From Desulfobacteraceae bacterium (GTDB taxonomy: Bacteria; Desulfobacterota; Desulfobacteria; Desulfobacterales; Desulfosalsimonadaceae), in the NCBI GenBank assembly GCA_003599885.1, contig QZKW01000048.1, positions 1 to 49,404 of the forward strand: 49,404 bases of DNA, written 5' to 3'. A model generated the notes under the pieces. The model made no database searches. It saw nothing but the letters and a program-made list of their open reading frames with translations, and was not told where the DNA came from. Made by a program: the position numbers and the translations under genes. The first letter of the stretch is position 1; each line of letters starts with the position of its first letter. Of this stretch, positions 541-10,051 are shown piece after piece.

Positions 541-1227
541 ATGACCCGAACCATACTTATTATTGAAGATGAAACCGACATTTTAAATCTCATTGAATGG
601 CATCTGAGGGCCGAAAAATATACGGTGCTGACGGCAAGTGACGGTTTAAAAGGCCTGGATACAGCCATCAGGCAATTGCCGGACCTCATCGTTCTGGACC
701 TCATGCTCCCCGGCATGGACGGCCTGGAAATCTGCAAAACATTGAAACGCAATCCGAAAACCGAGCATATCCCGGTGATCATGCTCACCGCCAAAGGGGA
801 GGAAGTGGACCGGATTGTCGGACTGGAACTGGGCGCGGATGATTATATGGTCAAACCGTTTTCCCCCCGGGAACTGACCCTTCGGGTCCGCGCCGTCCTC
901 AAGCGTACCGACATTTCCCCTGCTGAAGAAAAAAGCATTCAGTACCAGAACCTCCGCATGGACCTGGACAGTCACCGGGTGTGGGTGGGTGAGAACGAAA
1001 TCGTTCTCACCGTAACGGAATTCAAACTGCTGATAGAACTGATCCAGAACAGAGGAAGAGTGCGAACCCGCGATCAATTGCTGGACCGGGTATGGGGCTA
1101 CCAGTTCGACGGGTACGCCCGGACCGTTGACACCCATGTCCGCCGCCTTCGCCAAAAATTAGGGGAAGAACACGCAGATGCTGTCGAAACGGTTCGGGGC
1201 ATCGGCTACCGGTTCAGGGAAAATTAA
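541..1227 (+). CDS. phoB: Phosphate regulon response regulator PhoB
   Basis: OmpR/PhoB-family response regulator of 228 aa, the normal length. The receiver domain spans about residues 3-120, with acidic residues IEDE near the N-terminus, phospho-acceptor D53 in LIVLDLMLPGMDG, and the conserved KPF lysine. The C-terminal winged helix (about 130-227) ends in the classic VETVRGIGYRF. It is predicted to activate pst and pho genes when phosphorylated by PhoR at low phosphate. It is the first gene of a tight phoB-phoR-pstB-phoU operon, and a Pho-box-like array lies upstream. The assignment as PhoB rather than another OmpR-type regulator rests on phoR, pstB and phoU next door. Confidence 0.95.
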   Translation: MTRTILIIEDETDILNLIEWHLRAEKYTVLTASDGLKGLDTAIRQLPDLIVLDLMLPGMDGLEICKTLKRNPKTEHIPVIMLTAKGEEVDRIVGLELGADDYMVKPFSPRELTLRVRAVLKRTDISPAEEKSIQYQNLRMDLDSHRVWVGENEIVLTVTEFKLLIELIQNRGRVRTRDQLLDRVWGYQFDGYARTVDTHVRRLRQKLGEEHADAVETVRGIGYRFREN

Positions 1228-1231
1228 TATC

Positions 1232-3004
1232 ATGACCAACATGCGTTTCAGAACACGGCTGATGCTGTCTTTCTGGATAATCTTAATACTGGCCTTGTGT
1301 CTGCCCGCCTATTACATCAATCAAACCCTAAAAAACGATATCATACGGGAGGCGACGGCCAGCGCCTTTACCGAGCTGAACTTTGTCGACTGGCTCTTGG
1401 AAAAAGCCCCTGCATTTGAAAACAACCAGGCGCTGGATGATTGGTGCAAAGAGATCGGATCACAGGTAAAATACCGTATCACCATTATAGCGGCAGGCGG
1501 CAGGGTCATCGCAGATTCGGATGTCAAGGGTTCGGCGATCACAACGCTGGACAATCACGCAGATCGGGAAGAGGTCATCGGCGCACGCAAATCCGGTCAG
1601 GCATCCAGCCTCCGTTACAGCGGCACACTCAAGAAAAACTTAATCTATGCGGCAAAAAATATCAATTATTCTTTTGTCCCTTCCGGCGTTCTCCGGGTGG
1701 CGGTCCCTCTGTCCACCGTCGAAACCCGGCTGGCCCATTTTTCCCGTCAGTTCTGGGCCATTCTCCTGGCTATTTTCGTCACGACCACCATTCTCAGCCT
1801 GATTTTCGCCCAAAAACTCGAAACCCCGATACGTAAAATCATCCTGGCGGCCACCGCCATCGGAGAAGGGGATTTCAGCCGACGGCTGGATGTTGATACC
1901 GGAACGGAATTTGCCCCGCTCGCCCGCTGCATCAATGACATGACCGGCAAAATCGGACAGAGCATCGAGATGATCACCGCCCAGAAACAGGAACTGGAAG
2001 CGGTGCTTGAAGGCATGCAGGAAGGCGTGATGCTGCTGGACAGGGAAGGGAAAATCAAGGCCGTCAACCAGGCCCTGAGCGGAATCGCCCGATGCATGCC
2101 CACCTGCGTCGGACATCGGCCCATGGAAATATTTTTAAATGCGGAAATTCAGTCGGCCTGCGATGAGGTTCTGGGCGGAGAGGAGCATTTAAGGCTGAAA
2201 ATAGCGATGCCGAATGACCGGGAGTATGAGGTCAATCTCGTCAAAATCGCGGAAGAAGGAGCGGTTGTCGTGTTCCATGACATCTCTGAGCTGGTCAGGC
2301 TGGAAAAAGTCCGCCAGGATTTTGTGGCCAACGTTTCCCATGAACTCCGCACCCCCCTGACTTCCATCAAAGGGTATGCGGAAACGCTCCAGGATCCGTC
2401 ATTCAGGGCCGGGGATCAGGCCGGCGCGTTTGCCAACATTATCGTCAAAAACGCCGATCAGATGTCCCGCGTGGTTTCCGACCTCCTTGAACTGACCCGG
2501 CTTCAGCAGAAAAACGCCCAACCGGAAATGCTTGCCCCAGTCAACGCAGCGGCCTGCTTTCATACCGCCGCAGAAACCTGCATGCCCATGCTCAATGAAA
2601 AAAATATTCTTCTCCATAACCTTCTTGTCGGGCCCATTCCCGTTCAGGGGGACGAACATTCCATCGTGCAGGTATTCCGGAACCTTCTGGACAACGCCAT
2701 CCGCCACAGTCCGGATGGCAGCCGCATCACCGTATTTTCAAAAGACACAAACGATACGGTTGTCTTTGGCGTTGAAGATGAGGGGAGCGGCATTCCGAAA
2801 CAGCATCTGAAACGAATTTTCGAACGGTTTTACCGGGTGGACAAGGAAAGAAGCCGGGCATCCGGCGGCACCGGACTGGGGCTTGCCATCTGCCGTAACG
2901 CCATCCAGAAAATGGGGGGCGCCATCTGGGCCGAAAGCCCGCCGGGGAATCGCACCAAAGGATCGGGGTTTTATTTTTCTTTAAAAAAATTTAAGGACTT
3001 CTAA
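1232..3004 (+). CDS. phoR: Phosphate regulon sensor histidine kinase PhoR
   Basis: Membrane sensor kinase of 590 aa. I chose ATG 1232, 4 nt after the phoB stop; an upstream in-frame start at 1178 would overlap phoB by 50 nt. Order: TM1 (about 8-30), an extracytoplasmic domain of about 140 residues, TM2 (FWAILLAIFVTTTILSLIFA), HAMP, a PAS domain, then HisKA with phospho-accepting H370 in SHELRTP. HATPase_c follows, with DNAIRHSP (N box), GSGIP (G1) and GGTGLGLAI (G2). The large periplasmic domain makes it the long type of PhoR, unlike the short E. coli form. It should phosphorylate PhoB and be restrained by PstB/PhoU at high phosphate. Confidence 0.93.
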   Translation: MTNMRFRTRLMLSFWIILILALCLPAYYINQTLKNDIIREATASAFTELNFVDWLLEKAPAFENNQALDDWCKEIGSQVKYRITIIAAGGRVIADSDVKGSAITTLDNHADREEVIGARKSGQASSLRYSGTLKKNLIYAAKNINYSFVPSGVLRVAVPLSTVETRLAHFSRQFWAILLAIFVTTTILSLIFAQKLETPIRKIILAATAIGEGDFSRRLDVDTGTEFAPLARCINDMTGKIGQSIEMITAQKQELEAVLEGMQEGVMLLDREGKIKAVNQALSGIARCMPTCVGHRPMEIFLNAEIQSACDEVLGGEEHLRLKIAMPNDREYEVNLVKIAEEGAVVVFHDISELVRLEKVRQDFVANVSHELRTPLTSIKGYAETLQDPSFRAGDQAGAFANIIVKNADQMSRVVSDLLELTRLQQKNAQPEMLAPVNAAACFHTAAETCMPMLNEKNILLHNLLVGPIPVQGDEHSIVQVFRNLLDNAIRHSPDGSRITVFSKDTNDTVVFGVEDEGSGIPKQHLKRIFERFYRVDKERSRASGGTGLGLAICRNAIQKMGGAIWAESPPGNRTKGSGFYFSLKKFKDF

Positions 3005-3766
3005 ATGGAAAACGCGCAAAAATTCAGCGCCCGGAATCTTGATTTCTATTATGGCGACGTTAAAGCGCTGGATGATATTTCAATCACCATCGGCAAAAAT
3101 CAGGTCACCGCCCTTATCGGGCCTTCGGGCTGCGGGAAAAGCACGTTTTTAAGGTGCCTGAACCGTATGAACGACTTGATCCCCGGGACCCGGGTCCAGG
3201 GCCTCATTCATCTGGACGGCGAAGATATTTACGCGCCGAAAGTCGATGTGGTCAACCTTCGGCGGCGGGTGGGCATGGTGTTTCAAAAACCCAACCCGTT
3301 CCCCAAAACCATATTTGAAAACGTGGCTTACGGGCTGCGCGTCAACGGCATTAAAGACAAAAAAAGTCTCCGGCAGCAGGTGGAAAAAAGCCTGCACCAG
3401 GCTGCGTTATGGGAGGAAGTTAAAGACCGGCTGAACGGTTCGGCCCTTGGCTTGTCCGGGGGGCAGCAGCAACGGCTGTGCATTGCCCGGGCCCTGGCCG
3501 TTGAACCGGATGTGCTGCTCATGGACGAGCCGGCATCGGCGCTGGACCCCATCGCCACCCAGAAGATTGAAGATCTGATCCATGAACTGAAAAAAAACTT
3601 CACCATTATCATCGTCACCCACAGCATGCAGCAGGCCGCCAGGGTGTCGGATATCACGGCCTTTTTTTATATGGGCAAACTCATTGAAACCGGCGATACC
3701 GAGACCGTGTTCACCCGCCCGTCCCTTCAACAGACAGAAGATTATATTACCGGAAGATTCGGTTGA
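3005..3766 (+). CDS. pstB: Phosphate ABC transporter ATP-binding protein PstB (canonical copy)
   Basis: Cytoplasmic ATPase of a Pst importer, 253 aa. All motifs are canonical: Walker [11 protein letters not shown]-loop [10 protein letters not shown], signature [15 protein letters not shown], Walker B LLMDEP, D-loop SALDP and H-loop IIVTHSM. The start codon follows the phoR stop directly (TAA then ATG), so translation is coupled to the sensor kinase. It sits with phoBR and phoU rather than with permease genes. It probably serves the system whose pstS begins at 294 on the other strand. Its intact motifs contrast with the two degenerate PstB copies at 4539-6100. Confidence 0.95.
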
Positions 3767-3784: not shown

Positions 3785-4474
3785 ATGGAAGACAGAAAAC
3801 ATTTCGTCAACTCCCTCGAAAAACTGAAAATGATGCTTCTGAACATGGCCACCATGACCCGGCGCGCTGTTGAGAATGCCAATCAGGCATTTCAGGACCG
3901 CAATGAAGGCCTTGCCCAGGCGGTTATCGACGGTGATCACGCAATCAACGACCTTGAGGTTCAGATTGACAATATTTCACTCAAATTACTGGCGCTGGAA
4001 CAGCCCATGGCCAGGGATCTCCGGTTTATTATCGGCGCCATGAGAATCAGCAATGACCTGGAGCGTATCGCCGACCAGGCGGTCAATGTCGCGGAAAGGA
4101 CCCTGTTTCTGTGTCAGCACCCCCCACTGGACCCGATCCCCGCGATGGAACAGCTCATGGAAGTAACGGGGGACATGCTGGATCGCGCCATCAAGTCTTT
4201 TGTGGAGGAGGACCCGAAACAGGCTATCAGCATCCGGGAAATGGATGACACGGCCGATCACTGGACCATGGTTGTCTTGCAGACACTGATTGAAAATATG
4301 GTGCAGAATACGCCGGAAGGAGAAAAACGGCTGGTCAATACCCGACGGTCCGTTCAAACGATTATTGCTTCCCGGTGCCTGGAACGGGTGGGGGACCTAT
4401 CGACCAATATCGGCGAACATGTGGCGTTTATTGTCACTGGTATGAACGTGAAACACCAGAAGATCGCATTTTAA
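3785..4474 (+). CDS. phoU: Phosphate signalling complex protein PhoU
   Basis: Helical regulator of 229 aa that links the Pst transporter to PhoR and represses the Pho response when phosphate is plentiful. It has two PhoU repeats. The first carries the metal-binding-type signature around LRFIIGAMRISNDLERIADQ (about residues 78-100). The second carries TIIASRCLERVGDLSTNIGEH near the C-terminus. An AGGAG ribosome site precedes ATG 3785, 18 nt after pstB. It is the last gene of the phoBR operon and is followed by a long hairpin. Confidence 0.95.
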   Translation: MEDRKHFVNSLEKLKMMLLNMATMTRRAVENANQAFQDRNEGLAQAVIDGDHAINDLEVQIDNISLKLLALEQPMARDLRFIIGAMRISNDLERIADQAVNVAERTLFLCQHPPLDPIPAMEQLMEVTGDMLDRAIKSFVEEDPKQAISIREMDDTADHWTMVVLQTLIENMVQNTPEGEKRLVNTRRSVQTIIASRCLERVGDLSTNIGEHVAFIVTGMNVKHQKIAF

Positions 4475-4538: not shown

Positions 4539-5318
4539 TCATCCGTATCGGCCCTCGATGTACTCACCGGTCCTGGGGTTCCGGGGATTCAAGAACAGTT
4601 CCTCGGTGCGGGCATGTTCGATCATTTCGCCGAGCAGCATAAAGATGCATTCATCACTGATGCGCCGCGCCTGGGCCATGTTGTGGGTGACGATCACGAT
4701 GGTATAACGGCCCCTTAGTTGATACATCAACTCTTCAATGGCCCGGGTCCCTTCAATATCAAGCGCGGAACACGGTTCGTCCATTAAAATGACGTCCGGT
4801 TTCAGCGGCAGCAGGCGTGCGATGCAAAGCTTCTGCTGCTGTTCCAGCTGCAACGAGGTCGCTTTGGCTTTAAGACGGTCCTTCAAGTCTTTCCACAAGC
4901 CGACTTCCATCAGGGATTTTTCAACGATGTCATCCAACTCGCTCTTCTTAAAGGAGCCAAACGGATGATGGATGCGCAGGCCAAACAGGATATTTTCATA
5001 AACGGATATGGGCACCGGATTGGGGCGCTGAAAAACCATGCCAACCGATTTTCGCAATTCGATCAGGGAAACATCCGGGTCATAAATGTTTTTCCCGAGA
5101 ATCACGATCTTGCCTTCGGTCCGGACATAGGTGAAACGTTCATTGATGCGGTTGAAACAGCGCAGCAGCGTTGTTTTGCCACATCCGCTCGGGCCGATCA
5201 GCGAGGTGATCAGGCCGTTTTTCACATCGGTGTTGACATTTTTGAGGGCCTGGAATTCGCCATACCAGAGATTCAGATTCCGGGTGTGAATACAGTATTG
5301 CATACTCTCCGTTGTCAT
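4539..5318 (-). CDS. PstB-like ATPase with degenerate ABC signature motif
   Basis: Phosphate-type ABC ATPase of 259 aa, last gene of the second pst operon. Walker A (GPSGCGKTT, 42-50), the Q-loop glutamine (GMVFQ, Q97), Walker B (VILMDE, D180-E181), SALD and the H-loop histidine (VTHNM, H212) are intact. The ABC signature is not: LSGGQ is replaced by LQLEQ at 156-160. The DNA reads cleanly through this site, so it is not a frameshift. The losses are complementary to those in the neighbouring ATPase 5 nt upstream. The pair therefore probably forms a heterodimer in which this subunit supplies the working Walker/Q/H half-site. Confidence 0.9.
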   Translation of the reverse strand: MTTESMQYCIHTRNLNLWYGEFQALKNVNTDVKNGLITSLIGPSGCGKTTLLRCFNRINERFTYVRTEGKIVILGKNIYDPDVSLIELRKSVGMVFQRPNPVPISVYENILFGLRIHHPFGSFKKSELDDIVEKSLMEVGLWKDLKDRLKAKATSLQLEQQQKLCIARLLPLKPDVILMDEPCSALDIEGTRAIEELMYQLRGRYTIVIVTHNMAQARRISDECIFMLLGEMIEHARTEELFLNPRNPRTGEYIEGRYG

Positions 5319-5323
5319 AAGCG

Positions 5324-6100
5324 TTAGCCAAATATTCCGTTTACATATTCATATGTCTTGGCATACTGCGGATTGTCGGAAAAAATGTTTTCAGTGCTGT
5401 CAAGCTCGATACAGTCGCCGTTACACAGAAACATGGTGCGGTCTGCCAGACGGCGGGCCTGTTGTGTCAGGTTGGTGACCAGAATGATGGTGATATCATT
5501 GCGCAGTTCCTTCAACACATCCTCAATCCTCATGGTGGTCACCGGATCAATGGCGATTGAAAACTCGTCCAGGCATAAAATCTGCGGTTGATGTGAAAGC
5601 GCCCGGGCAATGGTCAAACGCTGTTGCTGACCGCCCGACAAAGCGGTGCCCAGTGTACCCAGACGATCTTTCACTTCATCCCAGAGGGCCGCCTGTTTCA
5701 GGCACCGTTCCACAATTTCGTCCAAGTCGTCTTTTTTTGTGAGTCCGACGCTGCGCGGCGCAAAGGCCACATTGTCGTAAATGCTCAAGGGCAATCCCAC
5801 CGGCAGCGGCGCCACCATGCCGATTTTTCGGCGCAGGGCGTAAATGTCCTTGATGCGGCTGATATCAGCCCCATCCACCCGGATGGTTCCGGAGACTGTG
5901 GCATTGGATACAAAGTCGATGGTCCGGTTCAGGCAGCGCAACAGCGAGGTTTTACCGGACTGCGACGGGCCGATGATACCGAAAATTTCATTGCGGTATA
6001 TATCAAAGGTCACGCTGTGGATGACTTCTTTAACGCCGTAAGCCAGGCGCAGATTTTCAATTTCGATGGTTTTTTCAGGAGGCGTCATGGTCACTACCAT
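5324..6100 (-). CDS. PstB-like ATPase lacking Q-loop Gln and H-loop His
   Basis: Phosphate-type ABC ATPase of 258 aa, fifth gene of the second pst operon. Walker A (GPSQSGKTS, 44-52), signature LSGGQQQRL (154-162) and Walker B (LCLDEF, D178-E179) are present. The Q-loop reads GMVAPLP, with Pro98 where PstB has Gln, and the H-loop reads VTNLT, with Asn210 for His. The SALD D-loop is changed to IAID. It overlaps the pstA stop by 7 nt. The start at 6100 is uncertain: an in-frame ATG at 6088 is equally possible. It should give the intact signature to its partner while its own nucleotide site is impaired. Confidence 0.9.
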   Translation of the reverse strand: MVVTMTPPEKTIEIENLRLAYGVKEVIHSVTFDIYRNEIFGIIGPSQSGKTSLLRCLNRTIDFVSNATVSGTIRVDGADISRIKDIYALRRKIGMVAPLPVGLPLSIYDNVAFAPRSVGLTKKDDLDEIVERCLKQAALWDEVKDRLGTLGTALSGGQQQRLTIARALSHQPQILCLDEFSIAIDPVTTMRIEDVLKELRNDITIILVTNLTQQARRLADRTMFLCNGDCIELDSTENIFSDNPQYAKTYEYVNGIFG

Positions 6101-7005
6101 TTTTTATGATTACGCAGCCAGACGCGCAGTGCGATGGCGCCGGCATTGACAAACAGAACCGAGCAAAGCAGGACGACGGCAGTGGCGTAAGGGAGAGATT
6201 CCTTCACATTGGGCACCTGGGTGGCCACTGTGTAAAGGTGCATGGAAAGCGCCATGCATTGCTCGTTTAATTGATATGGGAACAGGTCGCCCCGGGAGAC
6301 GGCCTTGTAAAATACGGCGCCGGTGAACATGATCGGGGCGGTTTCACCGGCTGCCCGGCTGACCTGTAAAATAATACCGGTCAGGATACCGCTGATGGAA
6401 TTGGGGAGCACAATGGCCCGGATCGTCTGCCATCGGGTGGCCCCGACATTCCAGCAGGCTTCCCGAAACGTCATGGGAACGGAAGCCAAAGCCTCCCGGG
6501 TGCTGGCGATAATTACCGGTAATGTCATAATGGCCAGGGTGAGCGAAGCGGATATGATGGAATAGCCGAACTGGGCGGCATACACAAACGCACCCAGTCC
6601 GAACAAGGCATGCACGATGCTGGGTACGCCCGCCAGATTGATAACCGCCAGATTGATAATCCGGTTAAACCAGTTGTCGCGGGCATATTCGTTCAGATAA
6701 ATGGCGGCAAAAACACCGATGGGTGCGGCAATGGCCAGTGAGATCAACACCAGATACAACGTACCGACAAAAGCCGGCCAGATCCCGCCTTCACTCATCC
6801 CTTTTTTGGGCACCTCGACCAAAAATTCCCAGCTCAGCGAAGGAAGCGCATGATAGAACAGATAAGCGATAATGGCCAGGAGCGGTATGATCATGCTGAT
6901 GACCATGAGGGAAAACAGGATTTTTGAAACGGATTGAATCCGTTCCTTGCGGACCACAAAATCGGTTTTGGTAAAACGGGTTACAGGATCAATAGGGTCG
7001 GTCAT
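6094..7005 (-). CDS. pstA: Phosphate ABC transporter permease PstA
   Basis: Inner-membrane permease subunit, 303 aa. There is one N-terminal membrane helix (ILFSLMVISMIIPLLAIIAYLF) after a charged cytosolic start, then five or so more helices. The binding-protein-dependent transport loop that docks on the ATPase is visible as EALASVPMTFREACWNVGAT. The ending LPNSISGILTGIILQVSRAAGETAPIMF is typical of PstA. It is 4 nt downstream of pstC and overlaps the next ATPase gene, so translation across the operon is probably coupled. Substrate assignment as phosphate rests on family and neighbours. Confidence 0.93.
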   Translation of the reverse strand: MTDPIDPVTRFTKTDFVVRKERIQSVSKILFSLMVISMIIPLLAIIAYLFYHALPSLSWEFLVEVPKKGMSEGGIWPAFVGTLYLVLISLAIAAPIGVFAAIYLNEYARDNWFNRIINLAVINLAGVPSIVHALFGLGAFVYAAQFGYSIISASLTLAIMTLPVIIASTREALASVPMTFREACWNVGATRWQTIRAIVLPNSISGILTGIILQVSRAAGETAPIMFTGAVFYKAVSRGDLFPYQLNEQCMALSMHLYTVATQVPNVKESLPYATAVVLLCSVLFVNAGAIALRVWLRNHKKW

Positions 7006-7009
7006 GGCG

Positions 7010-7942
7010 TTACTTTCTCCTGATCCCGCGAATTACCAGATCAGCGGTCAAATTCACTGCAAAAGTAATGATAAACAGCAGTATACCGGTCAGAAACAAA
7101 ACATGATAATGATCGGACCCTGCGGAAGCTTCTCCCAGTTCGGCGGCGATATTGGCCGTAAGGGTGCGGACGGAATCAAGGGGACCATGGGGGATCTGCA
7201 CGGCATGGCCGGTGGCCATCAATACCGCCATGGTTTCGCCGACTGCCCGGCCGATACCCAGTAATACCGCTGCAAGCAGGCCATTCTTGGCCGAAGGGAG
7301 CAGGACGCGATAGATAATCTGCCATTTGGTGGCTCCGAGCGCCAGGGCTGCTTCGCGATAGGAGTCCGGGACCGCCTTCAAGGCATCTTCGCTGATGGAT
7401 ACAATAATGGGCACACTCATCAAAGCGAGTATCAAGCCGCCATTCAGCAGATTTACACCCACCGGCGCCCCGGTTAATGAAACAATTATACGGCTCATTA
7501 CCGTTAAGCCGATGAATCCCCAGACAACGCTTGGAATCGCCGCCAATAATTCAATGATGATTTTTAAGGATTCTTTCATCTTTGGCCCGCAGAATTCTGA
7601 AATGAAAATGGCGCTTCCCAGGCCAAAAGGCACTGCGATGATCATGGCCAAAAATGTTACACTGATACTGCCGAAGGTTAAGGCAAAGGTTCCATAACGC
7701 ACGTTGACCTCTGATGTCGGATACCACTGAGTATTAAATAAAAACTTGGCAAGGTCAAAGTGGTCGCTGAAAAAAATAGGCAGCGCCTCACGAAAAACAA
7801 AGAAAAAGATGGCCAGAACGAAAATGATGGCGCTGATCCCGCTCAAGCGAATGATCAACTCGAGCAGGTTTTCCATTGCTATCGACAGGAACTGCCGTTG
7901 GGGTAAGGTGTTTTTTAAAGTTGAATCAGCCGTGTCGTTCAT
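7010..7942 (-). CDS. pstC: Phosphate ABC transporter permease PstC
   Basis: Inner-membrane permease partner of PstA, 310 aa. I use ATG 7942; the open frame extends three codons to a TTG at 7951. The first helix (ISAIIFVLAIFFFVFREALPIFF) is followed by the PstC-type sequence FGLGSAIFISEF. The ATPase-docking loop is EDALKAVPDSYREAALALGATK, shown here only by its core ALKAVPDSYREAAL. The family ending is GIGRAVGETMAVLMATGHA. It lies between pstS and pstA in the second pst operon. Confidence 0.93.
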   Translation of the reverse strand: MNDTADSTLKNTLPQRQFLSIAMENLLELIIRLSGISAIIFVLAIFFFVFREALPIFFSDHFDLAKFLFNTQWYPTSEVNVRYGTFALTFGSISVTFLAMIIAVPFGLGSAIFISEFCGPKMKESLKIIIELLAAIPSVVWGFIGLTVMSRIIVSLTGAPVGVNLLNGGLILALMSVPIIVSISEDALKAVPDSYREAALALGATKWQIIYRVLLPSAKNGLLAAVLLGIGRAVGETMAVLMATGHAVQIPHGPLDSVRTLTANIAAELGEASAGSDHYHVLFLTGILLFIITFAVNLTADLVIRGIRRK

Positions 7943-7988
7943 GCATATCAAGCCTGTTGTTTCTGATATAAAGGCAAATCAAATCCAT

Positions 7989-8924
7989 CTAGTTTGCCGG
8001 TTTAGCGACGTCCGCCGGAACATAACCATTCTCTTCCAGGATTTTTTGCCCGGGAACCGATAAAATCCAGTCAATATATTGCTTGACCGCACCTTCGGGA
8101 TCTCCCAGGGTATAGAGATGGAGCGAGCGGGCCAGGGCGTATTTTTTAGTCAATGTATTCTCAATGGTCGGCGGGCATGCGGGTTCGCCGGGCTTAGGGG
8201 AAATACAAAGCATTTTCACCGAAGGTGTGGCATAACCCATTCCGCTGTACCCGATGGCGGTTTTGGTATTACTGATCAGTTCCACGACTTCCTTGGACCC
8301 GTTCATGTCCCGTGATCCGAGTTTAAAATCCTGTTTGTTTAAAACATGCTCACGGAAAAATTCATAGGTGCCGGAACTGGACTGGCGGCTGATGCGCACG
8401 ATCTCATCATCGCTGACGCCGGGAATGGTCACGCCCATTTGGGACCATTTGGTTACCGTTCCCCCTTCCGCAAAAATTGCGGCCAATTGATCGATGGAGA
8501 TTTCGTTGAGCGGATTATCCTTGTGAACATAGACCGCCAAGGCGTCATAACCCACAGTGAAGTCTTTAGTATCTTTGCCGGTGTTTCGTTTGGCGGTTTC
8601 CATTTCTTGCGGCTTGATATTGCGGCTGGCGCTGGCGATATCGATGGTGCCTTTTACCAGTGCGGCAATGCCGACACCGGAGCCGCCTCCGGAAACTTCC
8701 ACATCCACGGTTGGCGCGACCTTTTTATACGCTTCGGCCCAGGCTTGCGCCACGTTCACAAGTGTATCGGAACCCTTAAGCTGAATGGTGGTGACTTCAG
8801 ACTTGGCCTGTTGCTCGTCTCCCTTCTGGCAACCTGCGAGAAAAAGAATACCGGTTACCGCAATCATCAGGGCGGAAAGCATAATTGAATGACATAAATG
8901 TGTTGAGCGATGTGTCTGCATCAT
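7989..8924 (-). CDS. pstS: Lipoprotein phosphate-binding protein PstS (second system)
   Basis: Substrate-binding component of the second Pst system, 311 aa. ATG 8924 has a GAGGAG ribosome site 5 nt upstream and is preferred over GTG 8945. A signal peptide with lipobox LAGC (Cys32) makes it a lipid-anchored protein, unlike the PstS at the window's left edge. Binding-loop elements are LKGSDTLVNVAQAWAEAY, SGGGSGVGIAAL, ASASRNI and SRQSSSGTYEFF. It follows the PhoU-phosphatase fusion by 26 nt. PstS and related PstS-like sensors are hard to separate by sequence, but the complete permease set supports a transport role. Confidence 0.92.
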   Translation of the reverse strand: MMQTHRSTHLCHSIMLSALMIAVTGILFLAGCQKGDEQQAKSEVTTIQLKGSDTLVNVAQAWAEAYKKVAPTVDVEVSGGGSGVGIAALVKGTIDIASASRNIKPQEMETAKRNTGKDTKDFTVGYDALAVYVHKDNPLNEISIDQLAAIFAEGGTVTKWSQMGVTIPGVSDDEIVRISRQSSSGTYEFFREHVLNKQDFKLGSRDMNGSKEVVELISNTKTAIGYSGMGYATPSVKMLCISPKPGEPACPPTIENTLTKKYALARSLHLYTLGDPEGAVKQYIDWILSVPGQKILEENGYVPADVAKPAN

Positions 8925-8950
8925 TTCTCCTCTACTTGATTTCACTTCCT

Positions 8951-10051
8951 TTATTTAATTTCACTGCCAATGATGGCCCCGATGAGATCATTCAAATGAC
9001 TTTTAATTGTCTGGTATGTCTCCTCGTAAGCAGCTGTTATGATTTCAGTTGATCCCTGCACCTGGGACGGGTCATCCATGGTCCAATCCAGAATGATCAT
9101 TTTTCTGGCGTCCGGGGGAAAGGCTTTCATCGCCTCTTTTGAAAAAACAATGATAACGTCATAATATTCCAGGTTCGGGACGGAATGAAAAGCCCTTGGC
9201 GCGACCCTGGACAAATCAAAGCCTTTGGTTTTCATGAATTTAAGGGTTGATTCAGCCACCGGCCTTGGAGAAAGCCCGGCGCTGGTAAAGATAAAGCGGG
9301 GTTGATCCATTCCCTCGGCGATGATTTCGGCCATCAAACTCCGGCATGCATTATAATTACTCAAAAACAGGATGCGAAAAGCAGCCGCGCCGGGGTGCTT
9401 GGGATTTTCGCCCGTACACATGTGCAGGACTTCCAGACAGATATTGCTCGCCTGATCCGAAACCCTTTCAAACCGCCGGACAATGGTCGTCAACGAATCA
9501 AAATCTTCCAGCGGGATTTCCTGTTTTAAAAAAAGACTGGCCAGCTTCTGGTTGCATTTGGTCCGCAGTTCGTCCACCGTATCATCAACGGCAATGTTCT
9601 TTTTGGCCAGTTCAATATCCTGTTCCAGAAACGCACGGGTTGCTTCATGAAGCATGAGAATCGATATCTTTGCCATATCGATAATGTCATCCTTAATCGC
9701 TTCGGGCACGGATTTCTTCAGCTGGATCAGGGAACGCGCGATACTTACGGCATAATCACCCACCCGTTCGATTTGAAGATTGATCCGGATGGTATTGTAA
9801 GCAAAACGCAAGGGCAACGCCACCGGTTGCTGGCGAACAATAAATTCCAGGCAAAGCCGGTCGACCTCCTTTTCTTTCTCATCGATGTAATAATCACGGA
9901 GGATAACGGCGTAGGCAAGTTTCCGGTCTTTTTCCACAAGGGCCTTCACGCAATCCTGCAGGGCTTTTTCAGCCAGTTGGGACATCTCCTGGACATTGTT
10001 GCGTATTCGAAGGATGCCTCTTTCCAACAATTCATTCAAATAAGATTGCAT
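8951..10051 (-). CDS. PhoU fused to a low-molecular-weight phosphatase/arsenate-reductase domain with Cys-to-Ser nucleophile
   Basis: First gene of the second pst operon, 366 aa. Residues 1 to about 215 form a PhoU domain with two repeats (LRFAYNTIRINLQIERVGDY; TTIVRRFERVSDQASNI). Residues about 225-366 have the LMW protein tyrosine phosphatase/ArsC fold: strand FRILFL, phosphate loop, TSAGLSPRPVAESTLKFM, YYDVIIVFS, and an acidic DDP (326-328) near the general-acid loop. The loop that should read CxxxxxR is SNYNACR. Ser231 (codon AGT at 9361-9359) replaces the nucleophile, while Arg237 and the second Cys236 remain. It is likely non-catalytic but able to hold an oxyanion. It may sense phosphate or arsenate for PhoU; that role is inference. 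Confidence 0.88.
   Translation of the reverse strand: MQSYLNELLERGILRIRNNVQEMSQLAEKALQDCVKALVEKDRKLAYAVILRDYYIDEKEKEVDRLCLEFIVRQQPVALPLRFAYNTIRINLQIERVGDYAVSIARSLIQLKKSVPEAIKDDIIDMAKISILMLHEATRAFLEQDIELAKKNIAVDDTVDELRTKCNQKLASLFLKQEIPLEDFDSLTTIVRRFERVSDQASNICLEVLHMCTGENPKHPGAAAFRILFLSNYNACRSLMAEIIAEGMDQPRFIFTSAGLSPRPVAESTLKFMKTKGFDLSRVAPRAFHSVPNLEYYDVIIVFSKEAMKAFPPDARKMIILDWTMDDPSQVQGSTEIITAAYEETYQTIKSHLNDLIGAIIGSEIK

Follow-up and report, generated by a model that had tools for sequence, protein, structure and literature searches.

Two adjacent minus-strand genes in a 49,404-nucleotide stretch of DNA from a Desulfobacteraceae bacterium (contig QZKW01000048.1, assembly GCA_003599885.1; hereafter the window) encode PstB-like ATPases, here termed P1 and P2, in which complementary motifs of the ATP sites are lost. 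With a probability of roughly 0.83, judged from the sequences, P1 and P2 would be the dedicated ATPases of one Pst-type importer, forming an obligate and oriented heterodimer with one consensus and one degenerate site. The initial annotation of this DNA had proposed an asymmetric Pst heterodimer at this locus; the finding is broader than first claimed, in that P1 and P2 represent an old, widely spread and co-inherited pair of unequal PstBs.

Complementary motif losses in P1 and P2

The motifs were placed by alignment to the canonical PstB of the window and by exact coordinate placement. P1 contains the Walker A motif GPSGCGKT, the Q-loop VFQRP, the Walker B motif LMDEP, the D-loop SALD and the H-loop VTHNM, and its signature reads LQLEQ (4839-4853) where LSGGQ is expected. 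P2 possesses the signature LSGGQ, with proline in the glutamine position of its Q-loop VAPLP (5801-5815) and asparagine replacing histidine in its H-loop VTNLT (5465-5479); the canonical PstB of the window has VFQKP and VTHSM in these positions. Additionally, the Walker A motif (GPSQSGKT) and D-loop (IAID) of P2 are likewise altered, which the initial annotation had not mentioned, and its Walker B motif reads CLDEF. The Walker A lysine and the catalytic Walker B glutamate are retained in both proteins. The alignment thus confirms each motif assignment of that annotation, namely intact Walker A/B, Q-loop and H-loop beside LQLEQ in P1, and intact LSGGQ beside the Pro and Asn substitutions in P2. 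Both open reading frames are confirmed on the minus strand at the positions first reported, and the claim that the losses are complementary and meet in one composite site holds by sequence and by the known site geometry.

The top NCBIfam match of both proteins is TIGR00972, with scores of 331.9 bits for P1 and 275.1 bits for P2, both under the curated PstB cut-off of 343.2; this cut-off is passed by some distant members of the pair, such as both subunits of genome G596 and both of G692. P1 is 47% identical to the canonical PstB of the window, a third PstB on the opposite strand that is absent from the initial annotation of this locus. An AlphaFold2 model of the P2 monomer, built from an 11-row alignment (predicted local distance difference test score 90.5, predicted template modeling (TM) score 0.87), predicts an intact ATPase fold. 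The top two Foldseek matches of this model in the PDB are Escherichia coli PstB in PstSCAB (9k3x, TM 0.91; 9k3s, TM 0.88), and E. coli PstB is also the best PDB match by sequence.

When the site geometry of ATP-binding cassette (ABC) dimers is taken from passages of a review (PMC7756269), the consensus site would combine the Walker A/B motifs, Q-loop and H-loop of P1 with the LSGGQ of P2 and would be the main place of ATP hydrolysis. In the degenerate site, the Walker A/B motifs, Pro Q-loop and Asn H-loop of P2 would face the LQLEQ of P1, and this site would probably bind nucleotide and hydrolyze hardly any. In a homodimer of P1 or of P2, both sites would be defective, which would account for the joint occurrence of the two genes.

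Distribution of the pair in relatives

Loci were assigned by script to the types QsH (degenerate signature, as in P1), qSh (Q-loop and H-loop lost, as in P2) and qSH (Q-loop Gln lost and His kept, also counted as P2-type). No close relative of P2 is present in the other 35 genomes searched of the family, where the best match reaches 217.5 bits and 47% identity. Within the class, 4 of 389 genomes, including that of the window, contain a relative of P2 at E<=1e-68; the relatives in the other three are 88, 85 and 67% identical, and all of them have an adjoining P1 with the same losses. A search of the class with a P1 profile (378 genomes), run at a loose threshold, matched 212 genomes, mostly through proteins that score like canonical PstB; its four best-scoring places (432-442 bits, followed by 395) are P1-type, and no degenerate type is found among 25 further loci fetched from it. 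In the phylum, a search of 395 genomes with a P2 alignment returned 57 places, of which 38 were examined and 19 left out; 23 of those examined are P2-type, and a P1-type partner is present in 23 of 23. A scan of species genomes with a P1 alignment gave 591 confirmed loci, the best 80 of which were taken. Among viral relatives, 18 pattern matches yielded 0 confirmed cases, and the at least 5000 matching records listed in a plasmid search are all below 60% identity.

As typed, 101 loci comprise 27 with QsH and qSh, 2 with QsH and qSH, 1 with QsH alone (L046) and 71 with canonical PstB only. The pooled set was reduced from 182 to 173 distinct PstB-like sequences by removing open reading frames of <=170 bits to all three window references, those of <=230 aa and identical copies; it contains 103 canonical, 35 QsH, 29 qSh, 5 qSH and 1 qsh sequences. 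A P2-type partner is present at 34 of the 35 loci with a P1-type, and a P1-type at 34 of the 34 loci with a P2-type, which is the co-occurrence of LQLEQ-type and Pro/Asn changes in relatives that the initial annotation had set as its test.

Relatives that share 40-88% identity with P2 or 51-86% with P1 show losses of the same kinds. The signatures of the 35 P1-types are LQLEQ (9), LSLEE, LSLEQ, LTEEQ, LTLGQ and LSEEM (3 each) and other sequences (11), and the Q-loop Gln, H-loop His, Walker Lys and Glu are retained in all 35. In the 29 qSh P2-types, the Q-loop residue is Pro (16), Ala (11) or Ser (2), and His is replaced by Asn while LSGGQ and Glu are retained without exception; in the qSH P2-types, Gln is replaced by Asp in 5 of 5 and Glu is retained in 4 of 5.

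Both subunits are present in records of Poribacteria, Binatia, Holophagales and Acidobacteria, Accumulibacter, Deltaproteobacteria (Myxococcota according to the tree tool), Ignavibacteriae, a planctomycete, WOR-1 and one unplaced bacterium; the records with named groups are all metagenome-assembled, and the single-contig genome G596 (locus L159) also carries the pair. With the phylum of the window counted, the pair spans about nine phylum-level groups. It stands in place of pstB in pstSCA operons, and the order PstS-PstC-PstA-P2-P1 is conserved. A peculiarity of this one genome is ruled out, as relatives of P2 occur in the class, the phylum and other phyla. In one Poribacteria record (L042), the pair is followed by a third PstB-like ATPase (8763-9527), degenerate in the Q-loop, the signature (LSIGQ) and the H-loop (ATNKR), and by a PstA-like stretch (8054-8515), together with PhoU.

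Co-inheritance and purifying selection

In a tree of 104 PstBs from which the motif columns were excluded (a quick method without bootstrap, with modest deep supports), 35 of 35 P1-types lie on one side of a branch with a Shimodaira-Hasegawa-like approximate likelihood ratio test (SH-aLRT) support of 85, and 34 of 34 P2-types form one group with a support of 90 (54 for the 29 qSh sequences alone). The 16-member subclades of window-like sequences have a support of 99 in both the P1 half and the P2 half, and the P1 and P2 subclades mirror one another. The distances among P1s and among P2s are strongly correlated (Mantel r 0.916 for 34 pairs), and 0 of 2000 permutations give a value as high. For the 12 genomes that also contain a canonical PstB, with canonical partners assigned to genomes by hand, the P1-P2 correlation is 0.957, compared with 0.575 and 0.585 for the correlations with canonical PstB.

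The ratio of nonsynonymous to synonymous substitution rates (dN/dS, NG86 method) among the window and loci L142 and L143 ranges from 0.069 to 0.094 for P1 and from 0.097 to 0.103 for P2 (in the comparisons with L145, synonymous sites are saturated), and purifying selection acts on both. Because the losses recur in relatives and dN/dS is low, the LQLEQ and Pro/Asn changes are regarded as selected features, and the same two observations rule out sequencing error or gene decay.

Change in the PstA coupling helix

In importers, the permease loop that the Q-loop engages is the coupling helix. Contacts between the Q-loop and permease loops of ABC transporters are described in passages of PMC7756269. 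The permeases of 32 of the 34 pair loci were compared (loci were dropped where PstC or PstA was more than 400 bases off or cut) with those of 36 canonical operons, which remained of 38 rows after two duplicates were removed. Five positions after the coupling-helix Arg, PstA has Ala or Gly in all 36 canonical operons and in 1 of the 32 pair operons, and the position before that holds Trp, Tyr or Phe in 27 pair operons and 12 canonical ones. At the matching position, PstC has Ala or Gly in 31 of the pair operons and 35 of the canonical ones. In the window's own genome, PstA of a second permease set (contig C90) reads YREASLALG, a canonical helix, and PstA of the window reads FREACWNVG.

The change in PstA may have arisen once and been inherited, rather than representing a series of independent repeats, and PstC serves as an internal control. 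Because the coupling helix is changed in the PstA of pair operons and not in their PstC, P2, with its altered Q-loop, probably docks on PstA, and P1 on PstC, which would be the most likely orientation of the dimer.

Counter-evidence and alternative readings

Several observations weigh against an obligate heterodimer. The pairs seem to descend from a single origin, which means that the loci counted for co-occurrence do not represent independent events. The assembly of P1 with P2 is deduced from site geometry and coevolution; we infer the physical heterodimer, single-site hydrolysis, the orientation and the phosphate substrate from sequence, and the phosphate role is read from the family matches of PstS, PstC and PstA. 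The initial annotation had named relatives with only one degenerate partner as contrary evidence, and all but one of the P1-type loci have both; the remaining locus, L046 in an Elusimicrobiota record, has a lone P1-type PstB (428-1174) with PhoU and would, if real, be such a relative. No P2 for L046 is found in the 427 upstream bases or elsewhere in the assembly, and the second PstB of this assembly, of canonical type, is truncated at a contig end. In a side clade of five loci (L153, L157, L211, L212 and L213), P2 keeps the H-loop His, with the Q-loop VFDLP and, in one member, Glu replaced by Asn; moreover, the two genes are not adjacent, the P1-type (LTLGQ, LMLGQ or LALGQ) lying before pstS and the P2-type after pstA. 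The catalytic Glu, the loss of which is common but not universal in degenerate-site ABC dimers, is retained in 33 of 34 P2-types, which is compatible with residual hydrolysis that could still occur at the weak site. Finally, a further strong PstB match is present in 16 of 20 pair genomes.

The last observation, together with the canonical PstB (3005-3766) beside the operon, would suit a very unlikely reading in which that protein drives the PstCA of the window and the pair consists of paralogues that are in decay or have a regulatory role. At E<=1e-70, three of the 20 genomes searched yield no PstB other than the pair, namely G700 and G624 (95% and 96% complete) and, with the side-clade form of the pair, G640 (86%); G645 has, besides the pair, only a partial and a weaker PstB match. 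Of 11 genomes searched at E<=1e-65, G770 and G773 likewise yield the pair and no other PstB. The low dN/dS of both genes and their conserved position after pstA also argue against this reading. In the window's own genome, a second canonical PstB, 91% identical to the first, is located at the end of contig C70 (L161) in a similar phoB-phoR-pstB-phoU block, and a second PstS-PstC-PstA set is located on contig C90 (L196), on the 10,057 bases of which no PstB is recognized; the genome therefore contains two permease sets and two kinds of ATPase.

A set of mixed dimers of graded activity, in which canonical PstB pairs with P1 and with P2, is highly improbable in place of one obligate pair. The identity between P1 and the canonical PstB and their presence in one genome would permit such mixing, and L046 combines a P1-type and a canonical PstB in an assembly where no P2 is found; however, P1 is closely co-inherited with P2 and not with canonical PstB, and there are genomes where the pair alone was found.

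The system might also serve mainly as a phosphate sensor derived from Pst and less as an importer, with a weak site that holds ATP and reports the state of the transporter to the PhoU fusion (Table 1) and PhoR. In the window-like clade, the pair is accompanied by PhoU fusions that lack the catalytic Cys, and passages of PMC5775613 describe E. coli PstB mutants, predicted to be in different resting states, that signal oppositely. On the other hand, the system retains PstS, the two permeases and one full consensus site, no other PstB is found in G700 and G624, and PhoU is without a fusion in more distant pair operons, which makes a mainly sensory role rather unlikely. A sensory role and the heterodimeric importer are not exclusive. 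A bolder version of the heterodimer reading, which is speculative and more doubtful than the importer itself, holds that the degenerate site may be a state reporter read by PhoU in an ancient, phylum-spanning class of Pst systems with an oriented heterodimer, P2 sitting on PstA and P1 on PstC, that spends one ATP per stroke; in the clade of the window, this PhoU is itself joined to a phosphatase that is probably dead.

Gene order of the locus

As shown in Table 1, the minus-strand genes run in the order PhoU-phosphatase fusion, PstS, PstC, PstA, P2 and P1, with short gaps or overlaps, and this pst operon converges with a plus-strand phoB-phoR-pstB-phoU block. PstS, PstC and PstA all exceed their family cut-offs. 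Pho-box-like sites number 14 within the window versus 10.5 expected, an uninformative difference.

Table 1. Genes of the converging pst and pho blocks of the window.
Feature	Position	Strand	Remarks
PhoB-like	541-1227	+	named by translation and context
PhoR-like	1178-3004	+	named by translation and context
Canonical PstB	3005-3766	+	TIGR00972 416.6 bits vs cut-off 343.2
PhoU	3785-4474	+	family match
P1, PstB-like ATPase with degenerate signature	4539-5318	-	259 aa; Walker A/B, Q-loop and H-loop intact
P2, PstB-like ATPase, Q-loop Gln to Pro and H-loop His to Asn	5324-6100	-	258 aa; LSGGQ intact
PstA permease	6094-7005	-	family match; coupling helix FREACWNVGATRWQ (6427-6468), differs from canonical pattern
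PstC permease	7010-7951	-	family match; coupling helix YREAALALGATKWQ (7319-7360), canonical pattern
PstS-family phosphate-binding protein	7989-8945	-	TIGR02136 235.4 bits vs cut-off 206.6
PhoU fused to low-molecular-weight phosphatase/ArsC-like domain	8951-10051	-	motif FRILFLSNYNACRS at 9338-9379

The PhoU fusion of the window has Ser at the expected catalytic Cys position of the low-molecular-weight phosphatase/ArsC-like domain. Ser, Asp or Gly occupies this position in 11 of 11 copies of the fusion, read by eye (the window, L142, L143, L145, L146, L148, L149, L150, L151, L152 and L045). The fusion probably carries a dead phosphatase domain and is possibly an anion sensor.

Relation to known systems

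The PstB homodimer of E. coli PstSCAB (9k3x and 9k3s) shares family, fold and partner genes with the pair, but it derives from one gene and has two equal sites, whereas two genes with complementary motif losses are present here. Passages of PMC12096839 describe the Firmicute PstB1/PstB2 (PstBA/PstBB), encoded by adjacent genes in one pst operon and with non-overlapping roles in Enterococcus faecalis; these proteins share the adjacency of P1 and P2 but keep intact motifs in both, and a complex of Bacillus subtilis PstBA and PstBB is predicted (PMC11466899). Two adjacent pairs of the present set (L093 and L104) also have both subunits intact and belong to neither the P1 nor the P2 group in the tree.

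The initial annotation had likened the layout to heterodimeric exporters with a degenerate site, and the confinement of the losses to one composite site supports this likeness. In TAP (ABCB2/B3) and Pdr5, as described in PMC7756269, the losses also lie within one composite site, and the signature LNVEQ and the lost H-loop His of Pdr5 resemble LQLEQ and VTN. However, these exporters with a degenerate site are heterodimeric or fused, carry ATPase and permease in one chain and have often lost the Walker B Glu, whereas P1 and P2 are separate ATPases of an importer and retain it. For the importers RbsA and NupO, a single degenerate ATP site has been reported on the basis of sequence (PMC11466899), but as Type II importers with fused ATPases and a loss in Walker A (in NupO also in Walker B), they differ from P1 and P2. 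The open literature searched, in which most subscription papers are not included, yielded no description of paired PstBs whose motif losses complement each other, which agrees with the remark of the initial annotation that the layout was not known to be described for a phosphate importer.

An arrangement best known from ABC exporters thus appears to be present in a predicted phosphate importer. The role of the dead ATP site in ABC transporters is an open question that has been studied mostly in exporters. In the present system, the ATPases are separate subunits with a solved symmetric relative (E. coli PstSCAB), so each can be swapped, mixed or mutated singly, and its link to the Pho regulon provides a signal that can be read out. 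Apparently ordinary duplicates of PstB may thus be non-interchangeable halves of one machine.
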